Positions 5,133 through 29,372 of a stretch of 39,399 nucleotides of DNA are shown piece after piece. The notes below the pieces were generated by a model that worked only from the letters and a program-made list of their open reading frames with translations, did no database searches and had not been told where the DNA came from. Numbering within the stretch: the stretch's first letter is position 1; the number at the start of each line of letters is the position of its first letter. Source of the stretch: Polyangiaceae bacterium. Its GTDB lineage: Bacteria; Myxococcota_A; Polyangia; Polyangiales; Polyangiaceae. The stretch lies in NCBI GenBank assembly GCA_029261965.1, contig JAJDAH010000135.1:1-39399 (forward strand), given 5' to 3'. The position numbers and the translations under genes were made by a program.

Positions 5133-6200
5133 TTAGAACAACAAGCCGCCGCTGTCGGCACACACCGCGGGGGGCTCGGGGGTGCAGACTCGTACGACGC
5201 AGCGGTCGGGTGGCTCGTCGCACTCGTTGCACCCTGGCGTCTTCGGTGCCGTGGCGCAGAGCTTGCCACCACAAACGAGACCGGGTGCGCACAGCACGGC
5301 GCTGCCCGAGGTCGGCTCGGGGCACGGCTCGTTCTCGCCGGGCGCTTCGACGCACGTGCCGTCGACGCATCCGAGACCATCGGCGCACCCGAGGACGACG
5401 TTTTGCAGGCAGGGCGAACCAGCGCCGGGCAGAGCCGTGCAGGTGCCGTCCGCGCAGTCACGAGACGCGCACTCGATCGGAAGCTCACATGACGCGCCCG
5501 CGGCTTTTGCCGTGCGACATGTCGCCTCGGTCATTCGCGGATCGCAGTAGTGGTCCTCGGCGCATTGATTCTGCGCGCACGGCTCACCATCGGTGGGAAG
5601 CGTCACGCACAGGCCGGAATCGGGGTCGCACACGAGCCCAGGTGGTCGGCACGTTCCGAGGGCGCCGGTGTCGTCGGAGCATCGATCACCCTCGTCGAGG
5701 ATGCCGCCCCGGCTGCTGCAGGGATCTTCGCAAGTACCCAAGCACGAGAGCCCCGGTTCGCAGTCGCTGGAACCGAATGAGCCGTCGCAATCTTCCCCCT
5801 CGCTCTTGGTGCCGCTGTACACGGCGCACGAGTCATCCGAGCACCCGAAACCCGTATCGAAGGGATCGAGCGGGTCGCAGCCTCGGTCGAGCATCGCGTT
5901 GAGCTTTCGAGCGAGGCAGTCACCGTCGTACGTCAGGCCGCTTTCCTGAGCGTCCTGTTGGAGCGACTCGAACGCGAACCTCATCCCCGTCTCGCAGTTC
6001 GTGAGTGGCACGCCCGCGAGCTCTCCGCAGTCACACCGCCGCCATTCGCGGCACAGCCGCTTCGCGACCTCGCTGGCTGCGCCGCTTTCGGAAACCGGGC
6101 CGTCGATTCGACTCAGGCCACTCCCGCCGCAGGAGAGCAACCAAGCGAACGTCGCGGTGATGACGACGCCGTAGCGAGCCAGGCGGGCAGAGCGGGTCAT
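5133..6200 (-). CDS. Cys-rich lipoprotein with repeated disulfide motifs
   Basis: A 355-residue protein when started at the ATG at 6200, which gives a clean signal (MTRSARLARYGVVITATFAW) and lipobox (LLSC); the frame is open to 6278. The N-terminal half has a helical domain with a C-x-W-R-R-C-D-C cluster and a Gly-Leu-Thr-Tyr-Asp-x-x-Cys element. The second half has repeated C-x-x-G-L-x-C-x-x-G-x-C units (about residues 135-330), like the Dickkopf/EGF-like Cys repeats of many myxobacterial surface lipoproteins. The N-terminal domain resembles that of the lipoprotein encoded at 33977-34987. Function unknown; surface location is inferred. Confidence 0.7.
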   Translation of the reverse strand: MTRSARLARYGVVITATFAWLLSCGGSGLSRIDGPVSESGAASEVAKRLCREWRRCDCGELAGVPLTNCETGMRFAFESLQQDAQESGLTYDGDCLARKLNAMLDRGCDPLDPFDTGFGCSDDSCAVYSGTKSEGEDCDGSFGSSDCEPGLSCLGTCEDPCSSRGGILDEGDRCSDDTGALGTCRPPGLVCDPDSGLCVTLPTDGEPCAQNQCAEDHYCDPRMTEATCRTAKAAGASCELPIECASRDCADGTCTALPGAGSPCLQNVVLGCADGLGCVDGTCVEAPGENEPCPEPTSGSAVLCAPGLVCGGKLCATAPKTPGCNECDEPPDRCVVRVCTPEPPAVCADSGGLLF

Positions 6201-6421
6201 GGTGCTGAACGTAGCAGCTCCGCCGCGGTTGACGGAGTGGACGTCGTGGCGATTTTCGAGATCCCCCGGAGTGTGCAATTCCGGGTCGGTCGAGATTCGT
6301 TCGCTGCATTCACGCTCCAGGTCGTCGTGCTGGCGTGAAGAAGCGCGGGTCTGGGGACTTGTAGGTCCGACCGACTTGCGCTGGGGTTTTCGTCTTGGGT
6401 GGACTGCGGTAGGTCAGAGGC

Positions 6422-7465
6422 ATGAAACGAGTCGCGCCGCTCAGACGCTCCGCCCGAATCTGGTGTCTCTCTCTGGTCGGCTTGGCCGCAGTGAGCTGCG
6501 AATTCGGGGACGTGCAGTACCAACTCACGTTCACTGGTGCCAACCACATCGGCGCGCTGTCGGTCGCCGGTGTACCCGGCACCGCGTACGTCGTGAGCCG
6601 CGCGAACCCGTCGGGACCATCCCAAGTCAGGGGTTATGACACCACCACGGGAGCTCTCATCGGCACGACGCCGACGTGGTCGGGCGGATGGGAGTTCGTT
6701 GGCGTCGAGAAGGTCGACGACCATTTCGGGGGCGGCCCGCCCAAGGTGATCAGCCTTCACCAAAACGGTCACATCGTGACCTGGCCCGACACCCTCGGTT
6801 CCTGGACGACCTGGGACTCGGGCTACATGTTCGAAAAGACTCGCAACGGTGACTTCTTGGGCGTACCAGGTGTGGACGCCGACTACGTGTGCGACTTCGA
6901 GTCGAAAGACGGGAAGCACTGGCTGATGTCGGGCGTCGTCGTCAACCAGGCGACGGGACTCAGATACCCGTACGTGGAGCACGTCGGCTACTACATCGAT
7001 GATGTCGTCAACATCACCTTGGACCTCCAAGAGTCACCCTACGCCGCGTCGTCGGTAGGTCCGTTCCAGAACCACTGCCCCAAGATCGCTGTCGACGCTG
7101 TGACGGACGAGTTCCGTGTGCTCTGGAGGTCGAGCGACTCTCCGGAATACGTCACCACGGCGCACCGATACCGCTGGGATCTCGAATGGGACGGCTACCA
7201 CATCGTGGAGGTCGACGTTTCGCCGCACACGATGACCCACACTCTGTGGAGCGCGCGAGACCAGAGCGCCACGCACGACGTGAACTTCATGGTCGCTCGG
7301 CAATTCCAGACTATCCTCTTCGACGAGGCCACCGGCATCGAAGACTTGCTCACCAGGGAATTCGGTTTCGTCGACATGAGCGACTGGTGGACGGGAAGCG
7401 ACGCCACGCGCAGGCTGTGGGTCGTCGAGGACGGCGACCTCCACGCGGTTTCGTTCGTGCCCTGA
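6422..7465 (+). CDS. Lipoprotein of unknown function, possibly beta-propeller
   Basis: A 347-residue protein with an Arg-rich n-region (MKRVAPLRRSARIW), a hydrophobic core and a lipobox ending in Cys26 (AVSC). The mature region is rich in Gly, Trp, aromatic residues and short beta-like segments such as G-x-W-E-F-V-G-V, H-I-V-T-W-P and a closing R-L-W-V-V-E-D-G-D-L. This resembles repeating blades of a propeller, but no blade motif is regular enough to name. It is divergent from the Cys-rich lipoprotein at 5133-6200 across about 220 bp. Lipoprotein export is well supported; the fold is a guess. Confidence 0.6.
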   Translation: MKRVAPLRRSARIWCLSLVGLAAVSCEFGDVQYQLTFTGANHIGALSVAGVPGTAYVVSRANPSGPSQVRGYDTTTGALIGTTPTWSGGWEFVGVEKVDDHFGGGPPKVISLHQNGHIVTWPDTLGSWTTWDSGYMFEKTRNGDFLGVPGVDADYVCDFESKDGKHWLMSGVVVNQATGLRYPYVEHVGYYIDDVVNITLDLQESPYAASSVGPFQNHCPKIAVDAVTDEFRVLWRSSDSPEYVTTAHRYRWDLEWDGYHIVEVDVSPHTMTHTLWSARDQSATHDVNFMVARQFQTILFDEATGIEDLLTREFGFVDMSDWWTGSDATRRLWVVEDGDLHAVSFVP

Positions 7466-7660
7466 ACCATCGGGCGCGTCACTGCTCGCTCCCCCACGGA
7501 CGGACCTGCGCCCCGGCGAGCAGCAGTCAGCCCCAAACGCGCTACGCCTCGAACGTCTCCCATCGTGTCGCCTGTCCGAAGCGCCCGCGCATGGGAGGGC
7601 GGGTCGAGATCACTTCGCCGACAGCGCCTGGCAGTCGTTCGAGCTGCAGGACTCCTACAG

Positions 7661-7857
7661 CCTGATACCGAGTTTCGCGACGCCTTCGTCGCCGGCCTGT
7701 CCCATATCGCGAAGGAGACTGGAGCGCGGCCCAGAACGCCTTCGAGGCCGTGGCGGATGCCGATCCCGAAGACGCCGCGGCGCACCTCTAGCTGGAGCGC
7801 ACCGCGGGAGAGCTGCCAACCGATCGGGATGGCACGACCCGACTGACCAGCAAATAG
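7661..7857 (+). pseudogene. Decayed C-terminal tail of a class III adenylate/guanylate cyclase-type protein
   Basis: Two adjacent frames read as one protein tail. FRDAFVAGL in the frame of 7661 continues after a one-base shift near 7703 as YREGDWSAAQNAFEAVADAD, then PEDAAAHL, an in-frame TAG at 7789-7791, LERTAGELP and finally DGTTRLTSK before a TAG at 7855-7857. A TPR-like helix pair followed by a P-D-D-x-P segment and a terminal D-G-x-x-R-L-T-x-K is the usual ending of CHASE2/HAMP-type class III cyclases. The frameshift plus internal stop mark it as dead. No catalytic cyclase domain remains upstream. Confidence 0.6.
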
Positions 7858-12823: not shown

Positions 12824-15469
12824 ATGTCTGTTTCCGTCCATGGCTTCGCGTCGATGCTCCTCCTCTCCGCGTGGGCCCTCCTGGGGTGCTCGGACTCTTC
12901 GGAGCGCGTCGACCCCGGGCCCGAACCCGGTGAATCAGTCGAGATCCTGCGCGACAAGAACGGCGTCGCGCACATCTACGCCGCCAACGACGAGGACCTC
13001 TTCTACGGCTACGGCTATCAGCTTGCCGAAGACCGCTTGTATCAGCTCGACTACTTTCGCCGGCGCGCCTATGGCCGCGGCGCCGAGGCTCTCGGTGGAG
13101 AGTTTCCGGGCGTTCAGAGCGTGACGATTCTCGGTGACGATCGTTTGGTTCGAATGTTCGACACCGAGCGCTGGGGCAATGCGGATTGGCGCATGGCCCA
13201 AGAGCACAACCCCGAGCGCTACGCGCTGATTCGAGCTTGGGTCGACGGCATCAATCAGAGGATCCGAGAGGTGCAGGCTGGCGAAGCCCCGTTGCCCCCC
13301 GAGTTCACCCGGCTCGACTTGTCACCAGAGCCCTGGGAGTACGTTGACCCGTTCGTGACGATGAAGATGGCGCATCTCGTGATGGACCAAACCATCCTCT
13401 ACAAGATCTTGATGACCATCGTCGGAGACTTCGCCCCAGACGCATTGAACAAGGTCGACATTCTCAAGCCGGCCCGACCCGTCTACGCCGCCGAGGATCG
13501 GTCTCGAGCCGAGAAGTCGGCGTCGCGTGCGGCACCCTTCGGTCCAAGGCAGCGGCGCGTCTCCCCGTCCCGCGCCGAGCAGCTCGTAGAGCTCATCGCG
13601 CGGGTCTTCGGCAACCACATGCCCTACGGGAGCAACAACTGGGCGGTCTCGGGCGAGCACACCGATACGGGTCGCCCGCTGATCGCGGGAGATCCCCACC
13701 TCGGTGCGATCCAGTCCGGATACCCCTACGCGGTGCATCTGAACAGCGCGGACGCCGGCGGAACCTTCAACGCGGCGGGCTACGCGTTCGTCGCCGGGCC
13801 TGGCCTGCTTTCGGGTCGGAACGAGAACCTCGTCTGGGCCCCGACATCGAGCTTCGGCGATCCGATGGACTTCTGGTCGGTCAAGTCGCTCGAGGGCGGC
13901 AAGGCCGTCGAGATCGCGGGAAAGCGAGTCGAGGTGGTCGAGCGCCGAGAGGTGTTCGAGGTCGAGGATGGGGAGACTTTCGTCGACGTGATGCGGGACG
14001 TGCCCGGCTACGGCGTGCTCTTCGATCCGGATCGGGCGGGGGTGCCCCTCGCGGCCTCCGTGCTCGCGGGCGAGCAGCGCGAAGTGCTCATCGGCTACGT
14101 CGACATGCGGGCGCGTCCGTCACGCTGGTTTCTCGAGACCAACCGCGCTCGAAACCTCGACGAGTTCGACGACGCCGTCGACCGAATGGAAGAGATGAGC
14201 TTCAACATGGTCGCCGCGAGCGCCGAGGGCATCACCTACCGAGTGGGGCAGGAGGTCCCGACGCGAAACATCGACAAGGGGATCCAACCTTGGCGCATTC
14301 TCGATGGAGACGACCCCGATGCCTGGTGGACAGGCCTCGGTGGCGATCCCGAGACGGGATTCGAGATCGAGCAACTCGGGCCCGATCGGCTTCCCCACAG
14401 TCGGGGCGAGCGGGGCGGTTTGATCGTCACCGCGAACAACGACCCCTTCGGCTTCACCGCCGACGGCAACCCCGGCAACGACGAGTGGTACTACGGCGCG
14501 TTCTTTCTGCCTGGCTGGCGAGCTGCTCGCGTCACCAGCGAGCTCGAGCGACTCAGCGCGCGCGGCGACATGTCCGTCGATGACATGAAGGCGCTCCAGG
14601 TCGACGTGCACAGCAACCTGTTCGAGCACCTTCAACCGGTGCTCTTGGATGCCTTCGATGCGTTCGACGCGAAGAATCCGGATCTCGTCGACTTCTGGGA
14701 CGGTTCCGACGCCGCCGACCTCCAGGTATTGGTCGACCTGCTCCGCGGATGGAACGGCCAGGCCCGCCGTGAGGAGACGGCGCCGGTACCGTTTTTCGTG
14801 CTCGCGCATACCATGAGCCGCAATGCGCTCGAGGACGACATCGGCGTGCTCTACGGACAGATCATCGACCGAGCGCCGATGTACATGTTCAAGATCATGA
14901 CACTGCTGCTGACCGACGGTTACGACAACGGACACCTGGCCTTGCAGAAGAACGGAACCGAGTGCGTCACTGCGGATCCGAGCACCTGCGACCTGTACAC
15001 GAAGAACGAGTTCGTGATGACGTGCCTGCGCCAGACTGCGGACTGGCTACGCTCGGTCTACGGGACCGTGGATTCGGCAGGCTACGTCTACGGCGACTGG
15101 CACCGCGCCAACATGGAGGGCGGCTACGGCGCCGGAGGCATCGTCTTGCCGCAGATTCCCGCGGACGGAGACGAGAGCACGGTGAGCGTGGCGAGCTTCA
15201 CCAAATTCACCGACGACCGCGAAGCGGGCTGGACGTACGACTGGATGCCCATCGTGCGGTCAGTGGGCACCTTCGACGAAGCCGGAAGGCCCCAAATGGA
15301 CTTCACGTTGCCCTGGGGCAACGTGGCCGACGAAGCGAGCCCGTACTTCGACAACCTCCGGCAGAACTGGACCGAGGGTGGATACGCTCGCATGTACTTC
15401 GACCGCGCGGATGTCGAAGCCCACGCGGACGCCACGCGCCAGATCACGATTTCGCGTCCAACCCGCTAG
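12824..15469 (+). CDS. Lipid-anchored penicillin acylase-family Ntn hydrolase (acyl-homoserine lactone/penicillin amidase type)
   Basis: An 881-residue protein. The start gives a short lipoprotein signal with lipobox LLGC (Cys22). The alpha chain region has the usual opening (ILRDKNGVAHIYA, then GYGYQLAEDRLYQLD). The linker ends before GSNNWAVSG, where Ser270 becomes the N-terminal nucleophile of the beta chain after self-cleavage. The oxyanion-hole Asn is expected in TANNDPFG near 538. A D-P-H-L element (about 290) that is also conserved follows the nucleophile. Such enzymes hydrolyse amide bonds of acyl side chains (beta-lactams, N-acyl-homoserine lactones, lipopeptides) outside the cytoplasm. 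The substrate cannot be read from the sequence. It is first in a plus-strand operon with DUF1592, DUF1552 and a lipoprotein. Confidence 0.9.
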   Translation: MSVSVHGFASMLLLSAWALLGCSDSSERVDPGPEPGESVEILRDKNGVAHIYAANDEDLFYGYGYQLAEDRLYQLDYFRRRAYGRGAEALGGEFPGVQSVTILGDDRLVRMFDTERWGNADWRMAQEHNPERYALIRAWVDGINQRIREVQAGEAPLPPEFTRLDLSPEPWEYVDPFVTMKMAHLVMDQTILYKILMTIVGDFAPDALNKVDILKPARPVYAAEDRSRAEKSASRAAPFGPRQRRVSPSRAEQLVELIARVFGNHMPYGSNNWAVSGEHTDTGRPLIAGDPHLGAIQSGYPYAVHLNSADAGGTFNAAGYAFVAGPGLLSGRNENLVWAPTSSFGDPMDFWSVKSLEGGKAVEIAGKRVEVVERREVFEVEDGETFVDVMRDVPGYGVLFDPDRAGVPLAASVLAGEQREVLIGYVDMRARPSRWFLETNRARNLDEFDDAVDRMEEMSFNMVAASAEGITYRVGQEVPTRNIDKGIQPWRILDGDDPDAWWTGLGGDPETGFEIEQLGPDRLPHSRGERGGLIVTANNDPFGFTADGNPGNDEWYYGAFFLPGWRAARVTSELERLSARGDMSVDDMKALQVDVHSNLFEHLQPVLLDAFDAFDAKNPDLVDFWDGSDAADLQVLVDLLRGWNGQARREETAPVPFFVLAHTMSRNALEDDIGVLYGQIIDRAPMYMFKIMTLLLTDGYDNGHLALQKNGTECVTADPSTCDLYTKNEFVMTCLRQTADWLRSVYGTVDSAGYVYGDWHRANMEGGYGAGGIVLPQIPADGDESTVSVASFTKFTDDREAGWTYDWMPIVRSVGTFDEAGRPQMDFTLPWGNVADEASPYFDNLRQNWTEGGYARMYFDRADVEAHADATRQITISRPTR

Positions 15470-15519
15470 GTGTCGGGCACGGCGCTTCAGCGAGCGAGCG
15501 AACCCGCGGAGAAACGACG

Positions 15520-17235
15520 ATGACCGAACGGAAAAGGCGACAGAAAGGAGCTTGGTCATTCTGGCCAGGCGGAGGTTTCGGGGTCGTGCTGCTCTCCCTC
15601 GCTTCGGGCGCGTGCCAAAGCGACAGCGGCGGCGGCCCCGAGGCGACGCCATCGCGCGTCGCGCCTCCCGTTCCCGCCGAAGCACCGCTTCGAAGGCTCA
15701 CCTCGGCGCAGTACCTGCGCATCGTTTCCGATGTCGTCGGTCCCGAAGGTGTGCTTCCGGCGCGGCTCGAAGAAGACTCCGAGTACTTCGGGCTTCTTTC
15801 TTTGGGAGCGGCGAACACCTCGGTCAGCTTCGCCGGGGTCGAGCGCTACGAACGCGCTGCGTACCTGATCGCCGAGCAAGCCCTCGCCGGTGGACCGAAC
15901 CGGCAGAGGCTCGTGCCCTGCGAGCCCCAAGGCGTGGTCGATGCGCAATGCGCCGAGCAGTTCGTCCGCGAGCTCGGGCGCAAGCTCTGGCGCCGGGGCT
16001 TGACCGATGGAGAAGTCGCGACCTTCGCGCAGATCGCTGTCGACGTCGCGAGCGATCCAGCCATCGCCGACTTTCATCGTGGCTTGGAGCTAGCGCTCGC
16101 TGGGCTGCTCCAGAGCCCCGACTTCATCTACCGGGTCGAGGTCGGTGCGCCGGCGCAGGGTGACGATACTCGACTGCGCTTCTCCGACGTCGAGATGGCG
16201 AGCCGCTTGTCGTTCCTCTTCTGGGGCGACGCACCGGACGAAGAGCTCTTGGCGGTGGCCGAGGCGGGCGGTCTCTCGGATCCGGCGACGCTTTCCGAAC
16301 AGGTGGGCCGTTTGATTGCGGACGAACGAATCAAGAACGGCATTCGAACGTTCTTCGACGAGATGCTCAAGCTCGGCGAGCTCGGGCATCTCGAGAAGGA
16401 TCCTACCGTGTTCACGGCGTACAGCGCCGAGCTCGGCCCCTCGGCGCGAGAGCAGACGCTGCTCGACTTGGAGAAGCTCGTCATCGCGGAGGACGGCGAC
16501 TTCCGAGGCATACTGACGAGCACCCGAACGCACGTCGACCGGACTCTCGCCGCCGTCTATCGAGTGCCGGCGCCCAGCGTGGACGGTTTCGCGTTGACCG
16601 TGCTGCCTCCCGATCAAGGACGGGTCGGCCTGTTCGGTCACGCGAGCTTCTTGGCGCTCAATTCGCACGCGGCGAGCACCTCCGCCGTCAAGCGCGGAAA
16701 ATTCGTGCAAGAGGTGTTGCTCTGCAATCCGATTCCGCCCCCTCCTCCAAACGTGAACACCGTGTTGCCAGAGGTCACCGAGGAAGCGGTGACGCTGCGC
16801 GATCGGGTCGGCATTCATCTGACCGACCCGGTGTGCGCCTCGTGCCACGAGCTCATGGATCCCATCGGCCTCGCGTTCGAAACATTCGACGCCATCGGAA
16901 CCTTTCGGTCGCACGACCAGCACGTGGAGATCGACGCGAGCGGAGTCTTGCGCGACGCCGCTTTCGACGACGCCGCTGGGCTCGCTCGAGTCATCGCCGC
17001 CGACCCGAATTTCACCAAATGCTTCGTCGACACTCTCCACAGCTACGCCGTGGGAACACCAGCCGACGGGCGAGCGCGTGGAGAGCTCGACGAGCTTCGC
17101 GATCGTTTCGTCGAGAGCGGCTACCGCGTGCTCGAAGTCATGCGCGCCATCGCGACGAGCCCCCGCTTCTGGGACGCAGCCGTTCAGGTCGGCGACTCAG
17201 GGCCCACCTGCGACCCCATGCCGGAGGACACGTGA
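15520..17235 (+). CDS. DUF1592/DUF1588/DUF1585 c-type cytochrome-like lipoprotein
   Basis: A 571-residue protein. I start it at the ATG at 15520, preceded by GGAG about 8 nt upstream; the frame is open much further upstream but there overlaps the acylase gene. It has a basic n-region, a hydrophobic stretch and a lipobox (ASGAC). Domains in order are DUF1587-like (RRLTSAQYLRIVSDVVG, about 55), DUF1595 (CAEQFVRELGRKLWRRGLT), DUF1592 (LLQSPDFIYRVE through RLSFLFWGDAPDEEL), DUF1588 (FLALNSHAASTSAVKRG, then VCASCHELMDPIGLAFE) and DUF1585 at the end. The CASCH in DUF1588 is a c-type heme-binding motif. The family is almost always encoded beside a DUF1552 protein, as here. Its reaction is not established. 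Confidence 0.9.
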   Translation: MTERKRRQKGAWSFWPGGGFGVVLLSLASGACQSDSGGGPEATPSRVAPPVPAEAPLRRLTSAQYLRIVSDVVGPEGVLPARLEEDSEYFGLLSLGAANTSVSFAGVERYERAAYLIAEQALAGGPNRQRLVPCEPQGVVDAQCAEQFVRELGRKLWRRGLTDGEVATFAQIAVDVASDPAIADFHRGLELALAGLLQSPDFIYRVEVGAPAQGDDTRLRFSDVEMASRLSFLFWGDAPDEELLAVAEAGGLSDPATLSEQVGRLIADERIKNGIRTFFDEMLKLGELGHLEKDPTVFTAYSAELGPSAREQTLLDLEKLVIAEDGDFRGILTSTRTHVDRTLAAVYRVPAPSVDGFALTVLPPDQGRVGLFGHASFLALNSHAASTSAVKRGKFVQEVLLCNPIPPPPPNVNTVLPEVTEEAVTLRDRVGIHLTDPVCASCHELMDPIGLAFETFDAIGTFRSHDQHVEIDASGVLRDAAFDDAAGLARVIAADPNFTKCFVDTLHSYAVGTPADGRARGELDELRDRFVESGYRVLEVMRAIATSPRFWDAAVQVGDSGPTCDPMPEDT

Positions 17236-18614
17236 TGAGCAGAGCCGGAAGAACCCTTCTCGACCGGAGGACGTTGCTTCGTGGGGCCATCGGGGGCGTT
17301 GCGATGTCGATGGGGCTGCCGACGCTCGAGCTTTTTCTCGATGCCAACGGCGACGCCTACGCCGACGGCAGCTCGTTCCCAAAACGATTCGGCGTGTTTT
17401 TTTGGGGAAACGGCACGCTGCCGGGTCTGTGGACGCCCACGACGCAAGGCGCGAGCTGGGAGCTCAGCGAGCAGCTCGGGCCACTAGCAGCGGTCAAAGA
17501 TCAGATCAGCGTCGTCACCGGCATGGCGCTCAAGTCGCCGAACAGCACACCCCACGAAAGCGGCGCGTCGGGCATCATGGCCGGAGGGGACTTGATCCAG
17601 AACACGTTCTCGCTGACCCGTCCCTCGGTGGATCAGTCGGTCGCTGACGAAATCGGACGCGACACGCGGTTTCGCTCGCTCGAGCTCGGCGTCGTCGACG
17701 AGGGAAACTTCTGGTCGTTCGCCGACGCGAACGTACCGAACCCCATCGAGTTCGATCCGCACACGCTGTATCGGCGCCTCTTTGTCGATGGGTTCACCCC
17801 GCCAGGGGCCGAGCCCGTCGTCGATCCCCTGCTCGTGCACCGACTGAGCGTGCTCGACGCCGTACGCGAGCAGTCCGGGCGGCTTTGCGGAAAGCTCGGC
17901 GCGGTCGACCGCCAACGCCTCGAGCAGCACCTCGACGGGGTACGCGACCTCGAGCGCCAACTTGCCAACGTGACGCCGACACCGCTCGGATGTGTGGTAC
18001 CCGGCCAGCCGGCGACCGACTATCCCGCGCTGCCGGACGGGTCCCCGGATCTCAGCGCGCGCAATGCCGTCATGGCGGGGCTCCTGGCCTCGGCGCTGTC
18101 GTGCGATCAGACCCGCGTGTTTACCTACTGGCTGACCGGGTCGCAGGCGGAGGTGCGCCTCCCGGGGGTCGAGTGCACGGATCCGGCCAGTGGCGCGGTC
18201 GGACCATGCCCCGAGACCTTTCACCGATACACCCACGACGAGCGCGGAGTCGACTGGTCGGATCAGCCCATCGTCAACCAGTGCGTCAAGCGGGTGATGG
18301 TGGAGCTCAACGAGTTTCTCTCGACGCTCTCGGGTACGCCCGAGGGCGACGGCTCGCTGCTCGATAATTGCGGCATCCTCTGCACCTCCGACTGTTCGTG
18401 GGGCGCCTACCACCTCGTCGACGAATATCCGATCATCGTGGCGGGCAGGGCCGGTGGCACGCTCAACGCCGGTGTTCACTACCGTTCGCCGAGTGCCGAG
18501 AACGTCAACAGCGTCACTCTGAGCTTGGCTCGTGCCATGGGCCTGAATTGGTCTTCGTGGGGTGAAGGCGCAGCGAAGACCAGTGACGGCTTGAGCGCCA
18601 TCGAGAATTGGTAG
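17235..18614 (+). CDS. DUF1552 family protein with twin-arginine signal
   Basis: A 459-residue protein whose ATG shares its A with the TGA of the preceding gene, implying translational coupling. The N-terminus carries a twin-arginine signal (DRRTLLRGAIGGVAMSMGLP), so it is exported folded by Tat. The body shows typical DUF1552 features: KRFGVFFWGNGTLPGLW, the S-G-A-S-G segment near residue 110, LDAVREQSGRL with a following LEQHLDGVRDLE, and the H-x-x-T-H-D-like HRYTHDERG. The family belongs to a broader alkaline phosphatase-like/sulfatase-like group of unknown activity and pairs with DUF1592 proteins. The Tat signal suggests a cofactor or cytoplasmic folding requirement. Confidence 0.9.
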   Translation: MSRAGRTLLDRRTLLRGAIGGVAMSMGLPTLELFLDANGDAYADGSSFPKRFGVFFWGNGTLPGLWTPTTQGASWELSEQLGPLAAVKDQISVVTGMALKSPNSTPHESGASGIMAGGDLIQNTFSLTRPSVDQSVADEIGRDTRFRSLELGVVDEGNFWSFADANVPNPIEFDPHTLYRRLFVDGFTPPGAEPVVDPLLVHRLSVLDAVREQSGRLCGKLGAVDRQRLEQHLDGVRDLERQLANVTPTPLGCVVPGQPATDYPALPDGSPDLSARNAVMAGLLASALSCDQTRVFTYWLTGSQAEVRLPGVECTDPASGAVGPCPETFHRYTHDERGVDWSDQPIVNQCVKRVMVELNEFLSTLSGTPEGDGSLLDNCGILCTSDCSWGAYHLVDEYPIIVAGRAGGTLNAGVHYRSPSAENVNSVTLSLARAMGLNWSSWGEGAAKTSDGLSAIENW

Positions 18615-20234: not shown

Positions 20235-23200
20235 ATGGATCCGTACACTCTCAACCCGTCTCGTCCCTTCGATGGGCTTCGTATCGCGCTCCCCGACACC
20301 GAGCGGTCGGCACGCGCCGCAGGGCTCGCCGAGCGCCTCGGGGCCTCGGTCGTTCGATTTCGCCTCTCGAGCCACGTTGGCGACCCCGAACGACGGGGCA
20401 TCGAGCATTGGGTGAACGAGCTGCTCGGCGGCGCCTTCGACGACGTCGTCTTCTCGACCGCTCAGGGCGTGCACGTGCTTCTCGGTTATGGTCGGTGCCG
20501 TCACGACGAAGAAGCGACAATCGAAGCGCTTGCACGAGCGCGATGCATCGCTCGCGGACCGCAGGTGGCCGCAGCCCTCGATGGCCACGGGATCGAGGTC
20601 GACATCCGCTCGGACGACGCGACCAGCGCGAGCCTGCTCGCAGCTCTCGCCGGCCTCGATTTCTCGAAGCGAACGGTGGCGCTCCAGCTCTTCGCACGAA
20701 ACCGAGAAACCGTTCTCCGTGAGCACCTGCGTGAGGCAGGAGCTTCTCTCCGTACTCTTGCAAGCAGCACCGACGAGGATGCGCCCACGATCGAGCTGAT
20801 CGAGCTGATCGAGCACGGACGGCTCGATGCCGTCCTCTTCACCAGCTCGACCCAGATCGATCGCGTGCTCGGGGTTGCGAAGGAGTGCGGACGAATCCAA
20901 TCGCTTCGACGAGGTTTCGATGCGACGCGCGTAGTCGCCGTCGGAGCAGCCGCTGCCGAATCTCTTCGCGAGAACGCCGTGCGCGTGGATGCGCTCGTCT
21001 CTCGTCGTGTGCTCGACGAGCCCGATCGAGAGCTACTCGCCGAGTCCCTCGACCGGGACGTCCGACCCGTTGACGCTCCGAGACCCGCGACGGACAGTGC
21101 TCGCTCCAGCCGCCGTCGCACGGTCGTCGTCATCGGCAACGGGATGGTGAGTCACCGCTTTTGCGAGCGAATCGTCGACTACGACGACGACGGATCGATC
21201 CAGCTCGTCGTCCTGGGCGACGAGCCGCTGCCCGCCTACGACCGCGTGAATCTGACGAGCTACCTCGACAAGAAGAGCGCTGACGAGCTGTTGCTTGCGG
21301 AACCGGATTGGTACGCCGCCCACGGAATCGACCTTCGCCTCGGCCGTCGCGCCGTTTCGATAGACCGCGACCTCCGGCTCGTGGAGACCGATGATGGCGA
21401 GGCCGTTCGCTACGACGCTCTCGTGCTCGCCACGGGATCGGAGCCTTTCGTCCCGCCGGTGCCGGGCATGAATCTCGACGGCGTCTTCGTCTATCGCACC
21501 ATCGCGGATTTGGACGCAATCCGCACGCGCGCTCGAACTGCGACTCGGGCCGCCGTCATCGGTGGCGGACTCCTGGGGCTCGAGGCGGCAAAAGCAGTCC
21601 GAGATCTGGGTGTCGAAACTCACGTCGTCGAGTTCGCCTCCCGGCTCATGCCTCGGCAGCTTGACGAGCTCGGCGGCCAGCTGCTCGCGCGAGTGGTCGA
21701 AAACCTTGGCGTGCACGTTCACGTCGAAAAAGCCACGAAGAAAGCCAAGGGCGACCGCGCAGTCGAAGGGCTCGTGTTCGCGGACGGGCCGGATCTCGAC
21801 ATCGACATGGTCGTCGTGTCGGCAGGAATCCGCCCTCGCAGTGACCTGGCCGACCGCGCGGGCCTGCGGGTCGGCGAACGCGGCGGAGTCGTAGTCGGCG
21901 ACGACCTGCGCACCGACGATCCCCGCATCTACGCGATCGGCGAGTGCGCGCTGCATCACGGCACGACCTACGGGCTCGTGGCGCCGGGCTACGACATGGC
22001 TGACACCCTCGCGCAGACACTGACCGGCAGTCCTTCGGCGTTCGAAGGCTCGGACATGTCCACGAAGCTCAAGTTGCTCGGCGTCGACGTTGCAAGTCTC
22101 GGCAAGCCTTTTCCGGACAACCCGGATCAGCCGACGGTCGTTCTCCAGGACTTGGTCAACGGGGTCTACAAGAAGCTGGTCCTCGACGACGCCGGCGAGC
22201 GGCTCGTCGGCGCGATGCTGGTCGGCGACGCCAAAGAGTATGCTTCCTTGCTCCACCTGGTTCGAAGCGGGGAGAAGGTGTCGGGTAACCTCGACGCGCT
22301 CATCGTCGGCGACCGCGACGGAGGCGACGACGGTGGCGGCCTACCCGCCGAAGCGCAGATCTGCTCGTGTAACAACGTCACGATGGGCGACCTTTGCCGC
22401 GGCATCCGCGAGCAAAGCCTGGCGAGCCTCCAAGACGTCCAGAAACACACGAGCGCCGGCACCGGTTGCGGCGGCTGCTTGCCGACGGTGGCGGACATCC
22501 TGAGCGCCGAGCTCATCGCCCAAGGGCATCGCGTGAGCCGACCCGCCTTGTGCGAGCACTTCGCCTACACGCGCCAGGAGCTCTACGAGATCGTCAAGGT
22601 TCGGCGCATCGCAGACTTCGACGCCTTGCTGGCTGAATACGGACGAGGCGATGGCTGCGAAGTCTGCAAGCCGGCTGTGGCATCGATCCTCGCGAGCACT
22701 CACAACGAGCTCATCACGCACCACCAGACGATCCAGGACACCAACGACCGTTTCCTGGCGAACATCCAACGCAGGGGCCTGTATTCGGTCATCCCCAGAA
22801 TCCCTGGTGGTGAGATCACCCCCGACAAGCTCATCGCGCTCGGCACCATCGCGAAGAAGCACGGGCTCTACACCAAGATCACCGGCGGACAGCGGGTCGA
22901 TCTGCTCGGCGCCCGCCTGGACCAGCTTCCCGACATCTGGGAAGCGCTCGTGCAAGAGGGCTTCGAGAGTGGCCATGCCTACGGCAAAGCCATGCGCACG
23001 GTGAAGAGTTGTGTCGGCTCCACTTGGTGTCGGTACGGCGTTCAAGATTCCGTGTCGATGGCTCTGAGGGTCGAGGGTCGCTACAAGGGCGTGAGATCAC
23101 CACACAAGCTCAAAGGCGCCGTGAGTGGATGCATCCGCGAATGCGCGGAGGCTCAGAGCAAAGACTTCGGTCTTATCGCCACCGAGCGCGGGTACAACGT

Positions 23201-24050
23201 GTACGTCTGCGGAAATGGTGGCACCAAGCCCCGTCATGCAGACCTACTGGCGGCCGACGTCGACGCGGACACCGCGGTCCGCTACCTCGACCGGTTCTTG
23301 ATGTACTATATTCAGACCGCCGACAAGCTCACACGCACGTCGGTATGGCTCGAAAGGCTCGACGGCGGCATCGAGTATCTCAAAGAAGTCGTCGTCGACG
23401 ACCGGCTCGGCATCTGTGAGCAGCTCGAGCTAGACATGCAGCATCTCGTCGACACCTACCAGTGCGAGTGGGCAGCCGTAGTCAGCGACCCAGAGCAGCG
23501 GGCACGGTTCCACCATTTCGCCAACTCGAGCGAGACGGACGGCAACATCGAGTTCGTGGTCGAGCGCGGACAGCTGCGGCCTGCGGATTGGCTTCGCGAC
23601 GATCGCTCGGACCATGATGTCGAGCGGCGCGTCTCACTTCCCGTTCTTCAGACGAGCTGGGTCCGGGTCGGCCGCGTCGAGGACTTTCCGGAAAACGGTG
23701 GACGGGCGATCAAGTACGGAGCCACCCAAGTCGCGGTCTTCAACTTCGAGTCCCGCGACCGCTGGTATGCGACTCAGAACACGTGCCCGCACCGGCTGGA
23801 CCAGGTCTTGTCCCGCGGCATCATCGGAGACGCTGGCGGCGAGCCGAAAGTCGCTTGCCCGCTGCACAAGAAGACGTTCTCGCTCGAATCGGGTGAGTGC
23901 TTGAGCGGCGAGCCCTATCGAGTTCGAACGTTCGACGTGAAGGTCGCTGACGGCGAGGTGCTCGTCGACCTTCCGCCGGAGCACGCAATGGTGTCTTTGG
24001 TCCCCCACTGTCCTGCTCCAGCCAAGCCGCCGGCGCGGGCAACGCACTGA
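20235..24050 (+). CDS. nirB: HemD-NirB-NirD triple fusion: uroporphyrinogen-III synthase, siroheme nitrite reductase and Rieske subunit
   Basis: A 1271-residue protein. Residues 1-about 285 are a HemD-type uroporphyrinogen-III synthase domain (GLRIALPDTERS, DDVVFSTAQGVHVL, ARGPQVAAAL, VALQLFARN, DAVLFTSSTQ, VVAVGAAAAESL). NirB begins near 295: FAD/NAD Rossmann motifs VVVIGNGMVSHR and AAVIGGGLLGLEAAK (about 440), a [2Fe-2S] BFD domain with Cys710, 712, 745 and 748, a second BFD-like domain (CEHF near 773, GDGCEVC near 807), then the siroheme/[4Fe-4S] Cys926-Cys932 (CVGSTWC) and Cys966-Cys970 (CIREC). The C-terminal NirD domain keeps both Rieske pairs, CPH (1183-1185) and CPLH (1208-1211). It reduces nitrite to ammonium with NAD(P)H in the cytoplasm. 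It heads the nitrate operon. HemD makes the precursor of siroheme, so the fusion links cofactor supply to its user. Confidence 0.92.
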   Translation: MDPYTLNPSRPFDGLRIALPDTERSARAAGLAERLGASVVRFRLSSHVGDPERRGIEHWVNELLGGAFDDVVFSTAQGVHVLLGYGRCRHDEEATIEALARARCIARGPQVAAALDGHGIEVDIRSDDATSASLLAALAGLDFSKRTVALQLFARNRETVLREHLREAGASLRTLASSTDEDAPTIELIELIEHGRLDAVLFTSSTQIDRVLGVAKECGRIQSLRRGFDATRVVAVGAAAAESLRENAVRVDALVSRRVLDEPDRELLAESLDRDVRPVDAPRPATDSARSSRRRTVVVIGNGMVSHRFCERIVDYDDDGSIQLVVLGDEPLPAYDRVNLTSYLDKKSADELLLAEPDWYAAHGIDLRLGRRAVSIDRDLRLVETDDGEAVRYDALVLATGSEPFVPPVPGMNLDGVFVYRTIADLDAIRTRARTATRAAVIGGGLLGLEAAKAVRDLGVETHVVEFASRLMPRQLDELGGQLLARVVENLGVHVHVEKATKKAKGDRAVEGLVFADGPDLDIDMVVVSAGIRPRSDLADRAGLRVGERGGVVVGDDLRTDDPRIYAIGECALHHGTTYGLVAPGYDMADTLAQTLTGSPSAFEGSDMSTKLKLLGVDVASLGKPFPDNPDQPTVVLQDLVNGVYKKLVLDDAGERLVGAMLVGDAKEYASLLHLVRSGEKVSGNLDALIVGDRDGGDDGGGLPAEAQICSCNNVTMGDLCRGIREQSLASLQDVQKHTSAGTGCGGCLPTVADILSAELIAQGHRVSRPALCEHFAYTRQELYEIVKVRRIADFDALLAEYGRGDGCEVCKPAVASILASTHNELITHHQTIQDTNDRFLANIQRRGLYSVIPRIPGGEITPDKLIALGTIAKKHGLYTKITGGQRVDLLGARLDQLPDIWEALVQEGFESGHAYGKAMRTVKSCVGSTWCRYGVQDSVSMALRVEGRYKGVRSPHKLKGAVSGCIRECAEAQSKDFGLIATERGYNVYVCGNGGTKPRHADLLAADVDADTAVRYLDRFLMYYIQTADKLTRTSVWLERLDGGIEYLKEVVVDDRLGICEQLELDMQHLVDTYQCEWAAVVSDPEQRARFHHFANSSETDGNIEFVVERGQLRPADWLRDDRSDHDVERRVSLPVLQTSWVRVGRVEDFPENGGRAIKYGATQVAVFNFESRDRWYATQNTCPHRLDQVLSRGIIGDAGGEPKVACPLHKKTFSLESGECLSGEPYRVRTFDVKVADGEVLVDLPPEHAMVSLVPHCPAPAKPPARATH

Positions 24051-24118
24051 GCGCGAGTTTTTCGGGGAGGTTTCGGCGAATGACGAGCTTCGGCTCGGTC
24101 GGGAGAAGTGCACGAACT

Positions 24119-24123
24119 GGAGG
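24119..24123 (+). promoter_or_regulatory. Ribosome binding site deciding the NarK start
   Basis: GGAGG ends 5 nt before a GTG at 24129. The open frame also contains a GTG at 24108, but that one has only GGGAGA immediately against it. I therefore choose 24129. Confidence 0.65.
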
Positions 24124-24128
24124 ATCCC

Positions 24129-25460
24129 GTGGAGATCAACAAGGCGACGAGAATCGATCTGCTCAGCTTTTCGAGCCCGCAAATGCGCGCATTTCACCTG
24201 ACCTGGGCCGCGTTCTTCCTCTGTTTCTTCGGCTGGTTCGGGATCGCACCGATGATGGCGATCGTTCGCGACGAGCTTCAGCTCACCAAGGCGCAGATCG
24301 GAAACATCATCATCGCGTCGGTAGCGATCACCGTGGTCGCCCGCCTGTTGATTGGCAGCCTGCTCGATCGCTACGGACCGCGAAAGGTCTACACCCTACT
24401 GCTCGCAGTCGGCGCCATCCCCGTGATGGGCATCGGTCTCGCCGAAAGCTACGAGACCTTCCTCCTGTTCCGCCTCGCGATCGGAGCGATTGGGGCTTCG
24501 TTCGTCGTGACCCAGTATCACACGAGCCTCATGTTCGCGCCGAACTGCGTGGGCACCGCCAACGCGACGACGGCCGGCTGGGGCAACATGGGCGGCGGTG
24601 TGACGCAGATGGCAATGCCGCTCGTCATGGCCGTCTTCATCGCCTTCGGCTTCAGCGACGCGGCGAGTTGGCGCCTGGCGATGGTGGTACCCGGCGTCGG
24701 CCTTTTGACGGCCGCGTGGCTGTACTACCGGCTGACGCAAGACACCATCGACGGAAACCTCGAGGACCTTCGTCGCCAGGGCAAGATCCCCGGGCATCTG
24801 AGTGCCAAAGGAACGTTCCTCGACGCCGCGAAGGACCGCCGCGTCTGGGCTCTGTTCGTCATCTACGGCGCGTGCTTCGGCGTCGAGCTCACGTTCCACA
24901 ACATCGCGGCCCTCTATTTCGCCGACCACTTCCAGCTCGATCTGAAGACCGCCGGATTGATCGCGGGCCTCTTCGGCGTCATGGCTCTGTTCGCGCGCAC
25001 ACTCGGGGGTTATTGCGCCGACCGAGCCGGGATCCGATGGGGGCTCAGGGGCCGGGTCGCGCTGCTCGGTGCCGGACTCGCGCTCGAAGGCATCACTCTC
25101 GTCGCGTTTGCGCAGATGAACGGGCTCGTCATCGCGGTGGCAACCTTGATCGTGTTCGGCCTGTTCGTCCAGCTGTCGTGTGGGGCCACGTTTGCCATCG
25201 TTCCGTTCGTCAACAATCGAGCGCTCGGAAGCGTGGCTGGAATCGTCGGTGCGGGGGGAAACGTGGGCGCGGTCGCGGCTGGGTTCCTGTTCCGGTCCGA
25301 AGCGCTGACGACACAGACCGCGCTCACCTACCTCGGCGTCGGCGTGCTCGCGTCGTCGTCTCTCGCACTGCTCGTCAGATTCAGCACTGCTGAAGAAGCC
25401 GGCGCCAAGAACGAGCTCGAGGAGCGACTGCGGAGCGCGGCGCCAGTGCCCGCCGAATGA
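24129..25460 (+). CDS. narK: Nitrate/nitrite transporter, NarK/NRT type major facilitator
   Basis: A 443-residue protein with a GTG start. It has twelve predicted hydrophobic segments and the two glycine-rich nitrate signatures of the NNP family: GWGNMGGGVTQ in helix 5 and GIVGAGGNVGAVAAGFLF in helix 11. The MFS loop motif is seen as GSLLDRYGPRKVY between helices 2 and 3. It would import nitrate (or exchange nitrate for nitrite) across the inner membrane to feed the two reductases of this operon. It lies 78 bp after the nitrite reductase fusion and 10 bp before the iron-sulfur/anchor gene. Nitrate as substrate is well supported by signatures and context; direction and coupling ion are not visible. 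Confidence 0.92.
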   Translation: MEINKATRIDLLSFSSPQMRAFHLTWAAFFLCFFGWFGIAPMMAIVRDELQLTKAQIGNIIIASVAITVVARLLIGSLLDRYGPRKVYTLLLAVGAIPVMGIGLAESYETFLLFRLAIGAIGASFVVTQYHTSLMFAPNCVGTANATTAGWGNMGGGVTQMAMPLVMAVFIAFGFSDAASWRLAMVVPGVGLLTAAWLYYRLTQDTIDGNLEDLRRQGKIPGHLSAKGTFLDAAKDRRVWALFVIYGACFGVELTFHNIAALYFADHFQLDLKTAGLIAGLFGVMALFARTLGGYCADRAGIRWGLRGRVALLGAGLALEGITLVAFAQMNGLVIAVATLIVFGLFVQLSCGATFAIVPFVNNRALGSVAGIVGAGGNVGAVAAGFLFRSEALTTQTALTYLGVGVLASSSLALLVRFSTAEEAGAKNELEERLRSAAPVPAE

Positions 25461-25470
25461 CGGAGGAAAA

Positions 25471-27147
25471 GTGACTCAACCAGCGTTTCGACTGCCACTG
25501 ATCCATCAGGTGCTCGAAGAGCAGAGCCGCCTGACCGTCGTCGAGCGGTTCGCTCAGCGACACGCCGCGAAGGAGCCGCTCGCCCAACGCGAGCACTACC
25601 GCGCGCTGATTCCACTCACCGAGCCGGCCCCTGGCCAACAGTACGGTTTCCACGTCGATCTGGACAAATGCACCGGTTGCAAGGCCTGCGTCGCCGCGTG
25701 CCACCGAGTGAACGGTCTGGACGACGGGGAGTCCTGGCGCTCGGTGGGCCTCCTGCACGGGGGCACCGTCAACGAGCCCGTCCAGAAGACCGTCACGGCG
25801 GCGTGCCACCACTGCCTCGACCCCGCGTGCATGAAGGGGTGCCCCGTCGACGCCTACGAAAAGGACCCTTTGACGGGGATCGTTCGGCACCTCGACGACC
25901 AATGCATCGGGTGCCAGTACTGCATGCTCACCTGCCCCTACGAGGTCCCACAGTTCAACGAGCGCCTCGGCATCGTTCGCAAGTGCGACATGTGTGCGGA
26001 CCGACTCGCCGTAGGAGAGGCGCCGGCGTGCGTCCAGGGTTGCCCGAACGAGGCCATCGAGATCCGACTCGTCGATCGGGAGCAGGTCGTAGCCGACACA
26101 CTCGCCGACGCATTCTTGCCGGGAGCACCGTCACCGGGCATCACCGCACCCACGACCACCTACCAGACCGACAAACCCCTGCCGCGAAACGTCCTGCCTG
26201 CGGACTTTCACGATGTGCGCCCTGCCGCCCAGCACATGTCGCTCGTGGTCATGCTGGTTTTGACACAACTCTCGGTAGGTGCGTTCGCGGCGGATGCCGC
26301 GCTCCACGCGTTCGATACCGACGGGTCGCTCACCGCCTTCCTACCGCTGCAGTCGCTGGTTGCTCTCGGCAGCGGCTTGCTCGCCCTCGGCGCGAGCGTC
26401 TTTCATCTCGGGAGACCCGCCCTCGCCTATCGAGCCCTTCTCGGAATTCGCACGTCGTGGCTGAGCCGCGAGATCCTCGCCTTCGGCGTCTTTGCGGCCC
26501 TCGCCTTCGCCTACGCGGCTTCGTACTGGCTCAACGGATCTCTCGGCCAGCTGGTCCGACCGTGGCAGCCGCTGCTTGCCGCCTCGGTGGTCCTGGCCGG
26601 CGGCAGCGCCATCGCCTGCTCGGCGTTTCTCTATCATGCGACCCACCGGCGCTTCTGGCACATTTCAGCCACGGGCTTTCGGTTCTTCATGACCGCGGGT
26701 GCGCTGGGGCTTGCTACGACCCTCTGGGTCGCGGTCGTCCCAGCCGAGGCGCTCGGCGTCGCACACTCGACCTCGAGCGACGCCCGACGGGTGCTGGCTT
26801 GGGCCCTCGCGCTCGCGAGCGGGCTCAAGCTCGTGCACGAGGCCGGAGTCTTCGCTCACCTCACCGACCGTCAGCACGGTGACCTGAAACGGTCGGCGAT
26901 TCTGATGACCCGACAGCTTTGGCCAACGACCAAGCTACGCTTCCTCGCCGGAACGGTGGGCGGCGTGCTCGTGCCCATGCTCTGCGCGTCGACTGGTGCT
27001 CTCGACGCCCCAGGAAAACCGACGGCCTTTTTCGTCACCGCGGGGCTCGCCGCGGTCGTTGCCGGCGAGATCCTCGAACGACGTCTGTTTTTCGCTGCGG
27101 TGAGCGCACCGCGCATGCCTGGCGCGGTGGGAGGCCAGGGCCCGTGA
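25471..27147 (+). CDS. Fused DmsB-like iron-sulfur and DmsC-like membrane anchor subunit of the nitrate reductase
   Basis: A 558-residue protein with a GTG start and GGAGGA 3-8 nt upstream. The first ~200 residues are a DmsB/NrfC-type ferredoxin domain with sixteen Cys for four [4Fe-4S] clusters: 67/70/73/77, 112/115/120/124, 145/148/151/155 and 172/175/187/191. From about 230 to 545 there are about eight hydrophobic segments of a DmsC-type anchor (including [25 protein letters not shown], shortened here to its core HLGRP). In DMSO reductase these are separate subunits that pass electrons from menaquinol to the molybdenum subunit. Here they are one chain, and the gene overlaps the molybdopterin subunit gene by 4 nt (GTGA). 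The simplest role is quinol-to-nitrate electron transfer on the cytoplasmic face. Confidence 0.9.
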
Positions 27148-29372
27148 AGCAGCCAAAACACCTCCACGATCTTCTCTTGTGCCGCGACGGTCCGCTGACG
27201 CGGGAGCTTCTGCGCAAGCCGGCAGGCTTCGGGCTCGGGCTGCGCCCCGCGCGACTCGCGCCCGACGCGACGACGACTTCGGTGTGCGGATTTTGCTCCA
27301 CCGGCTGCGGCCTCGAGCTGCACCTTCGCAAGGGCGCCGCCATCAGTCTTTCCCCGGCGAGCGACTACCCAGTGAACCTCGGCATGGCGTGTCCGAAAGG
27401 ATGGGAGGCGCTGACGCCCCTCGCCGCCACCGACCGTGCGACGACGCCCCTCCTTCGCAACAACAAGGGCCAGCTGGTCCCCGTCGCCTGGGAAGAGGCA
27501 CTCGGCACCTTCGTCGATCGATTCCGCGCCATCCAAGACGAGCACGGCCCCGAATCCGTCGCATTCCTCGGCACGGGCCAAGTCACCACCGAGGAGATGG
27601 CGTTTCTCGGAGCGCTCGCCAAGTTCGGCATGGGAATCCGGCACGGCGACGGCAACACCCGTCAGTGCATGGCGACGTCGGTGGTTGCGTACAAAGAAGC
27701 CTTCGGGTTCGACGCGCCTCCTTACACCTACGCCGACTTCGAAGCCTCGGACGTCATCGTTCTGGTGGGCTCGAACCTCTGCATCGCGCACCCCATCCTT
27801 TGGGAGAGAATCTGTCGGAATCCCCACCGGCCGGAAATCGTCGTCGTCGATCCGCGGAAGACAGAAACCGCCATGAGCGCGACGCAGCACCTCGCGCTTC
27901 GGCCAAAGAGCGATCTCGTCCTGTTCTACGGCGTCGCCAAGCTGCTCATCGATCGTGGCGCCATCGACGAGGCCTTCGTCGATGCGAGCACCACGGGCTT
28001 TCGAGAGTTTGCCGCCCACGTTCGTGACTACGACATCGAAACTGTCTCGCGCGAGACCGAGCTCTCCGTCGACGCCATCGACCATCTGGTCACCACGATT
28101 CAGAAGGGCGAGCGCGTGAGCTTCTGGTGGACGATGGGGGTCAACCAGAGCCACGAGGGTGTGCGCGTCGCACAATCGATCATCAATCTGGCGCTCATGA
28201 CCGGAAACATCGGTCGGCCAGGCACCGGGGCCAACTCGATCACCGGCCAGTGCAACGCGATGGGATCGCGGCTGTTCAGCAACACGACGAGCCTTCTCGG
28301 GGGCAGAGATTTTCGCAGCCGAGCCGACCGCCGACACGTCGCAGACGTTCTCGGCATCGACGAGGGCCGCATCCCCTCGCAGAACAGCCTGGCTTACGAC
28401 CAAATCCTCGAACGAGTGCTGAGTGGGAAGATCCGCGGGCTGTGGATCATCGCCACCAACACCGCCCACTCCTGGATCAATCAAGCCGATCTGGACGACA
28501 CCCTCAGCCGCCTCGACTTCGTCGTCGTGCAAGACATGTACGCGAGCACCGAGACGACGCGATTCGCCGATCTCGTGCTCCCGGCGGCGGGTTGGGGCGA
28601 AAAAGACGGAACCTTCATCAACTCGGAGAGGCGTATCGGGCTGGTCAAGAAAGCCGTTCGCGCTCCGGGCCAGGCTCTCGCCGACTTTCACATTTTCCGA
28701 TTGATCGCCGAAGCCTGGGGGGTCGGGGAGATGTTCGCTCGCTGGCAAAGCCCGGAGCAGGTGTTCGAAATCCTGCGGGAGCTCTCGCGAGGTCAGCCGT
28801 GCGACTTCTCGGGCATCGACGGCTACGACGATCTCGAGCAGCGGCGCGGCATTCAGTGGCCGCTTCCCGAACGAGCCGGAGACGAGGCCGGAGCCGAGCC
28901 CCAAGCCGAGCGCCGCCTCTTCGAAGACGGCCGCTTCTTTCACCCCGACGCCAAGGCCAAGCTCATTTTCGAAGAGCCTCGGCGCCTACCCGAGCCCGTG
29001 AACGACCGCTACCCGTTCACACTTCTCACCGGACGCGGAGCGTCGAGCCAGTGGCACACCCAAACCCGCACCGCGAAGTCGGAGCTGCTCCGAAAGCTGT
29101 ACCCGAGCGAGGCCTACGTCGAAATCAACCCCGCCGACGCGGCTCGACTCGACCTCGCACCGCACGAACAGGTGCTGATCGAAACGCGCCGCGGGAGGAT
29201 GGCAGCGCGCGCCTACATCACCAACGTCGTTCGGCCGCACCAGCTTTTCGTGCCGATGCACTACCCGGCAACCAACCAACTGACGTTTCCCGCCTACGAC
29301 CCCTACTCACGCCAGCCGGCGTACAAGGCATGCGCCGCGCGGGTCCGAAAGCCGAGCGACCGCGGCGTCTAG
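27144..29372 (+). CDS. nasC: Molybdopterin nitrate reductase catalytic subunit (assimilatory type)
   Basis: A 742-residue protein. I take the GTG at 27144, which overlaps the previous stop as GTGA; the frame is open upstream but inside the preceding gene. A ~45-residue extension precedes the [4Fe-4S] motif Cys48, 51, 55 and 83 (CGFCSTGC and GMACPKGW). Cys175 in [10 protein letters not shown] is the expected molybdenum ligand. Other Mo-bisMGD landmarks are [30 protein letters not shown] and the C-terminal [17 protein letters not shown] cap, as in NasA/NasC/NapA. No twin-arginine or Sec signal is seen, so it should act in the cytoplasm, reducing nitrate to nitrite. It lacks the C-terminal BFD domain of some Nas enzymes, which fits electron delivery by the fused DmsB-DmsC partner. 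Confidence 0.92.

Follow-up and report, generated by a model that had tools for sequence, protein, structure and literature searches.

HemD-type domains, that is, domains of the uroporphyrinogen III synthase (U3S) type, are already known outside heme and siroheme synthesis. NnaR, an activator of nirBD, carries one, which in S. coelicolor is reportedly without HemD activity and has been proposed as a possible sensor (PMC6277429 and PMC11162112), and its role is called unclear in PMC11162112. A survey of archaeal fusions, in the portion available, mentions CobA-HemD and HemC-CobA-HemD and no HemD-NirB (PMC11237513). Here we describe a gene on contig JAJDAH010000135.1 of a Polyangiaceae bacterium (assembly GCA_029261965.1; the whole stretch of 39,399 nucleotides is called the window) that encodes a HemD-like domain, a full NirB and a Rieske-type NirD in a single chain of 1271 residues. 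An earlier note, made from the sequence alone, had pointed out this chain and knew of no description of the exact arrangement. A full-text search of openly licensed PubMed Central (PMC) papers found no HemD-nitrite reductase fusion described, although nitrite-linked HemD domains as such are known from NnaR; an archaeal heme paper that it returned treats other nir genes. Computation here covers the fusion and its conservation, selective constraint between close pairs, descent, the lost residue and the gene neighborhood.

The frame runs through 1271 uninterrupted codons from the ATG at 20235 to the stop at 24050, and is made up as follows.
20235..24050, forward strand: hemD-nirB-nirD, single chain of 1271 residues (open frame, Pfam and NCBIfam).
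20274..21059, forward strand: HemD-like domain, residues about 14-275 (Pfam, predicted model and alignment).
21060..21116, forward strand: linker, residues 276-294, of low predicted confidence and of varying length in orthologues (alignment and predicted model).
21117..23588, forward strand: NirB part, residues 295-1118, with FAD/NAD, BFD [2Fe-2S] and siroheme/4Fe-4S domains (Pfam, NCBIfam and alignment).
23655..23969, forward strand: NirD part (residues 1141-1245), whose Rieske ligands follow the pattern C-x-H ... C-x-x-H (Pfam, NCBIfam and alignment).

The domains of all three parts exceed their cut-offs. HEM4 (PF02602) scores 88.6 bits at residues 29-253 against a curated Pfam cut-off of 27.5, and Pyr_redox_2, Fer2_BFD, NIR_SIR_ferr, NIR_SIR and Rieske_2 (1141-1244) also surpass their curated values. 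With NCBIfam models, NirB (TIGR02374) reaches 1008.8 bits over residues 297-1086 (equivalog cut-off 578.35) and NirD (TIGR02378) 113.9 bits over residues 1141-1245 (cut-off 74.65). Across ten aligned three-part chains, C710, C712, C745 and C748, then C926, C932, C966 and C970, and finally C1184, H1186, C1208 and H1211 are invariant. By their motifs, we take these three sets to be the ligands of the BFD [2Fe-2S] cluster, of siroheme/4Fe-4S and of the Rieske center, respectively, and on this assignment the ligand sets are intact, as the note had judged.

An artefact of assembly or sequencing could in principle unite adjacent genes, and the window is an entire contig of a 480-contig assembly, but nothing else speaks for it. 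The window protein is matched at E ≤ 1e-90 in 31 of 108 genomes of the family, and 10 of these 31, the window's own included and belonging to five genera, carry HemD, NirB and NirD in that order in one stop-free frame. The other nine chains are 49-55% identical to the window protein over the alignment. A split of the frame near 21100 or 23640, which the note had considered, was looked for, and the frame is open across both joints in all ten chains with no stop. Because the same chain recurs in ten genomes of five genera, the joint is genuine; a frameshift or misassembly is refuted by the nine orthologues and retains practically no probability.

Within the genomes and loci searched, the fusion was found in this family only. 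In 183 genomes of the order, a profile of the fused HemD exceeds 200 bits, among the matches listed, only in these ten chains, whose frames span 1263-1339 residues. Outside the family, among the matches listed for 377 genomes sampled across the phylum, with up to six candidates scored in each, none exceeds 200 bits (individual inspection did not extend to weaker matches in long frames), and two lone relatives score 196 and 190 bits. For other phyla the profile was applied to 80 public NirB loci only.

These 80 loci are the best of at least 570 confirmed in a public genome scan, whose patterns were derived from NirB. NirB and NirD share a single frame in 21 of the 80 (one of the 21 is a partial frame of 544 residues), so the note's remark that the two are usually separate holds only in part. 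Neither the fused-HemD profile nor a profile of the lone second HemDs introduced below matches in the 80 stretches, and a CobA-HemD-type profile gives one weak match (L172). The search for a HemD-NirB-NirD fusion in other groups thus yielded none in these best 80. What sets the chain apart is thus its HemD part, a union of NirB with NirD being commonplace.

In 106 genomes of the family, three kinds of HemD can be told apart by HEM4 score among the matches listed. First, a high-scoring kind, mostly at 150-235 bits, has CobA and HemD domains in all 12 rows checked. Second, lone second HemDs score about 98-143 bits. Third, the fused domains score 35-93 bits in nine chains, the tenth (G089) being absent from the matches listed. 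The 12 CobA-HemDs and the 25 lone second HemDs used below are a selection from the matches rather than all of them. The source genome has, elsewhere than in the fusion, a HemD of the first kind (CobA-HemD, 218 bits, both domains confirmed), one HemC and a further domain of the precorrin-2-dehydrogenase type. The note had asked for a stand-alone hemD in the genome; the other HemD found there is part of this CobA-HemD fusion.

In several genomes, lone second HemDs lie near nirBD. In the family, they are found directly upstream of nirB (G099, G065), further upstream (G096, G097) or downstream of nirD (G019, G100, G038). On plasmids of other phyla, for which 7 of 26 records found were examined, a lone HemD comes after nirBD, the order being nirB-nirD-hemD in Deinococcus (L222, Deinococcota) and Paenibacillus (L228, Bacillota), and nirB-nirD-molybdopterin oxidoreductase-cysG-hemD in Microvirga (L226, Alphaproteobacteria). 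The lone HemD of Thermus oshimai is inside a cluster of nitrite/sulfite reductase and siroheme genes, and those of Azospirillum and Bacillus have neighbors other than nirBD. The nearest lone relatives in the class, those of G410 and G483, have no nirB within the stretch fetched; the former adjoins peptidyl-arginine-deiminase-type and carbon-nitrogen hydrolase genes, and the latter a histidine kinase gene. Incidentally, G094 (L079) has its lone second HemD twice in tandem on the same strand, at 5589-6500 and 6803-7663.

All 25 lone second HemDs match NCBIfam NF004584 and NF005568 (uroporphyrinogen-III synthase), at scores below the cut-offs in the one row for which they are listed. NF005568, with a length of 381 residues, is of the HemD-plus-regulator type. 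A scan of the 25 lone second HemDs found no DNA-binding domain, and a Pfam scan of the 1271-residue chain detected no PF00486 winged-helix domain. A reading of the fusion as an NnaR-type regulator was dropped on the absence of a DNA-binding domain from both.

A tree of 56 HemD rows with a midpoint root places the ten fused domains in one clade (100/98), and HemD was therefore probably fused once. This clade joins the lone HemDs of G410, G483, Azospirillum and Microvirga (99/88), apart from CobA-HemD. Two other sources of the fused HemD were considered and are unsupported by the tree: CobA-HemD, and the family's own nirB-adjacent lone clade.

The HemD region was modeled with AlphaFold at a mean predicted local distance difference test score (pLDDT) of 85 and a predicted template modeling score (pTM) of 0.56. 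The HemD-type structure expected from the note was recovered, as the best 12 Foldseek matches in the PDB are all U3S. The best structural match is the Thermus thermophilus enzyme (3d8s, 1wd7), with Z of 16.7 over 243 residues and 28% identity to 3d8s. The root-mean-square deviation (rmsd) is large, 15.3, so that the two lobes match but their relative placing does not, which suggests that the lobes of the modeled domain are placed differently from those of the Thermus enzyme. Structural rows of VIA-align ranked under U3S entries were taken merely as common arrangements. When the window HemD domain was searched directly against the PDB by phmmer, no U3S was retrieved; a profile of the alignment did recover U3S.

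One lobe has been kept better than the other. In the window domain the middle lobe (residues about 52-165, with limits taken from the human enzyme) is conserved and the other lobe is degenerate. Mean pairwise identity in the middle lobe is 0.43 in the fused set vs 0.41 in the lone set, and in the other lobe it is 0.31-0.32 vs 0.43-0.52. This degeneracy would suit a structural add-on, in which the HemD fold is a ligand-free scaffold serving as oligomer contact, solubility aid or linker. So would the fast evolution of the domain, since fused HemD domains are 25-32% identical to the window copy while NirB is 62-65% identical in two of the same pairs, and the higher rates in wider pairs given below. 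Against a mere scaffold stand E57, W59, D69-D70, Q77-G78-V79, R103 and G108, all invariant in one lobe of the fused domains aligned, and the presence beside nirBD of HemD genes from several lineages, for which a mere scaffold would not account. We consider the scaffold unlikely.

A tyrosine that is otherwise conserved has been lost. It is kept in 12 of 12 CobA-HemDs, 24 of 25 lone second HemDs (one has C) and 9 of 9 other rows, whereas in 10 of 10 fused domains its column is a gap, with four residues missing there. No tyrosine is present in L172-D182 of the window domain, the stretch where it would sit, and G092 and G093 have an unrelated Y further along. According to PMC7242693, no residue of U3S has so far proved essential, but mutagenesis (Roessner 2002, cited there) indicates a possible active-site tyrosine, reported to matter for activity. 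Our literature search for the tyrosine by residue number returned nothing. Loss of the second G-P motif was dropped as a sign of inactivity for being weak, as rows of Thermus, Bacillus and Paenibacillus are without P too. Because the tyrosine and much of the other lobe have been lost, the fused domain is most likely no longer the uroporphyrinogen III synthase of the cell, and we infer from its sequence that catalysis has probably been lost.

In the two closest pairs, the ratio of nonsynonymous to synonymous substitution rates (dN/dS) is 0.07 and 0.17 for HemD, and 0.03 and 0.13 for NirB, which shows purifying selection on the HemD part in close pairs. The fused domain thus has some role, though probably not its original chemistry.

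The note had suggested that the fusion could couple precursor synthesis to the apo-enzyme in need of it, with the domain as an active, dedicated synthase whose uroporphyrinogen III supply is tied to nitrite reductase. The HEM4 score above its cut-off, the predicted U3S fold and the low dN/dS of the two closest pairs agree with this, as do relatives that adjoin nirBD, in Microvirga together with cysG. As none of the residues is known to be essential and the Microvirga relative stands behind cysG, an active synthase keeps a real chance. On the other hand, the tyrosine is gone in all ten chains, the source genome already has CobA-HemD, and the nine fused domains listed score lower with HEM4 than most frames of the CobA-HemD type. 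Besides, uroporphyrinogen III is several enzyme steps short of siroheme; methylation, oxidation and iron insertion come first. On this evidence the coupling is not supported, and we rate an active synthase as doubtful. What did hold of the note's idea is the tie to a nitrite and siroheme context: the fusion lies in a nitrate-assimilation cluster, and lone relatives lie beside nirBD, that of Microvirga right after the CysG gene.

We favor, with a probability of roughly 45%, a single fusion of a HemD of the nitrate-cluster kind to NirBD, after which the domain probably became non-catalytic and may serve as a tetrapyrrole-binding module that loads or senses siroheme, much as has been proposed for NnaR. 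In an ancestor of the five genera, a second hemD of this kind would have been fused in frame ahead of an already joined nirB-nirD. The domain would then have retained the fold and one conserved lobe, and lost the activity-linked tyrosine and much of the other lobe. It would still bind a tetrapyrrole, be it siroheme or one of its precursors, and would help load, protect, gate or sense the cofactor of the tethered nitrite reductase. Tetrapyrrole binding and the role for NirB are proposed by analogy.

Several points weigh against the non-catalytic module. A gene of the sister group, in Microvirga, follows cysG, which is consistent with an active enzyme. As the ten chains form one clade, their missing tyrosine counts as a single loss. 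Moreover, the Streptantibioticus row, of the NnaR type, retains the tyrosine although NnaR reportedly lacks activity, so that the tyrosine alone is no predictor of activity. The tyrosine lies at position 189 of chain 1jr2, and its identity with human Tyr168 and with the residue mutated in the cyanobacterial enzyme is our assumption. In wider pairs with finite dS, dN/dS is 0.22-0.80 for HemD vs 0.16-0.33 for NirB, which would also fit relaxed constraint; these seven pairs were not leaned on, dS being above 1 or infinite in most (0.88 for G090-G093). HemD constraint is looser than that of NirB wherever both are measurable. The downstream nitrate genes are not present in the fetched stretches of every fused genome.

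Two further points concern ancestry. The nine-row clade of nirB-linked lone HemDs is found in 0 of 10 fused genomes vs 7 of the 16 genomes that lack the fusion but have NirB matches of more than 640 bits, a complementary distribution that is suggestive only, as the comparison neither corrects for kinship nor separates two NirB lineages. Placed by BLAST, the lone HemDs of G114, G116, G117 and G118 and the second one of G097 all fall outside this clade. A NirB tree built by a quick method does not gather the fused rows into one clean group; it has four label changes, though one is still allowed. Secondary loss of HemD may therefore have occurred in some relatives, G097, G099, G011, G113 and G033 among them. 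The same tree has two NirB lineages in the family, one grouping with a cyanobacterial NirB and the fusion-bearing one lying nearer Planctomycetota and others. In G113 (L108), whose congener G008 has the HemD fusion, nirB is unfused and preceded, upstream of 2936, by what looks by eye like a CysJ-type flavoprotein reductase.

Downstream of the fusion, the window continues on the same strand with three genes.
24108..25460, forward strand: major facilitator superfamily (MFS) transporter, which probably carries nitrate/nitrite for the cluster (Pfam; an overlapping frame at 24080-25393 is without domain).
25471..27147, forward strand: DmsB-like iron-sulfur protein and DmsC-like membrane anchor in one chain (Pfam and NCBIfam).
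26919..29372, forward strand: molybdopterin oxidoreductase, probably nitrate reductase (Pfam).

Together with the fusion, these read as a nitrate-assimilation cluster. Among the nine other fused genomes, a clear relative of the transporter adjoins the fusion in two (G090, G095), of the DmsB/DmsC-like chain in five (G088, G089, G090, G092, G093) and of the molybdopterin oxidoreductase in four (G088, G090, G092, G093). The fetched stretches of G002, G006, G008 and G095 have no clear relative of the DmsB/DmsC-like chain. A membrane anchor for the nitrate reductase of an assimilatory cluster is odd, and such a chain is also near nirB in several relatives. The listed TTG start of the oxidoreductase overlaps the preceding gene, and the real start is probably further downstream. 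Elsewhere in the window, at 12824-18614, a penicillin amidase (12824-15469) is followed by a DUF1592/DUF1588-type and HXXSHH (DUF1552) gene pair (14962-17235, 16833-18614); these listed frames overlap, and their real starts are probably downstream of those listed.

A stronger form of the proposal is tentative: that a HemD fold was turned from an enzyme into the built-in receiver of siroheme or its precursor in an assimilatory nitrite reductase, as a loading or sensing module. If so, the fusion would add a covalent tie to a broader tendency of HemD-type proteins to be drawn, time and again, to nitrite assimilation: as lone genes, as NnaR and as this fusion. To our knowledge, the delivery of siroheme to its enzymes is poorly known. 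The natural fusion points to nitrite reductase, rather than DNA, as a partner of HemD-like domains, and one protein allows binding, loading and activity to be compared with and without the domain.

Among known systems, the closest functional parallel is NnaR of Streptomyces and Mycobacterium, in which a HemD-type domain likewise stands apart from the housekeeping enzyme and is tied to nitrite assimilation. NnaR differs in having a PF00486 DNA-binding domain, seen in the Streptantibioticus row, where the window protein is instead fused to the reductase. The lone second HemDs of Deinococcus, Microvirga and Paenibacillus are related HemDs in the same gene neighborhood, but they are separate genes, all three keep the tyrosine, and only that of Microvirga belongs to the group that joins the fused clade in the tree. 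CobA-HemD also holds a HEM4 domain within a fusion protein, but its partner is the next enzyme of the pathway, its tyrosine is kept in all 12 rows and its clade is separate. Thermus thermophilus U3S, the best structural match, keeps the tyrosine and differs in lobe placing. Finally, the NirB-NirD fused nitrite reductase is what residues 295-1245 of the window protein are, and it differs in that the 80 sampled stretches, 21 of which have this enzyme in one frame, gave no HemD of the fused or lone second kind.

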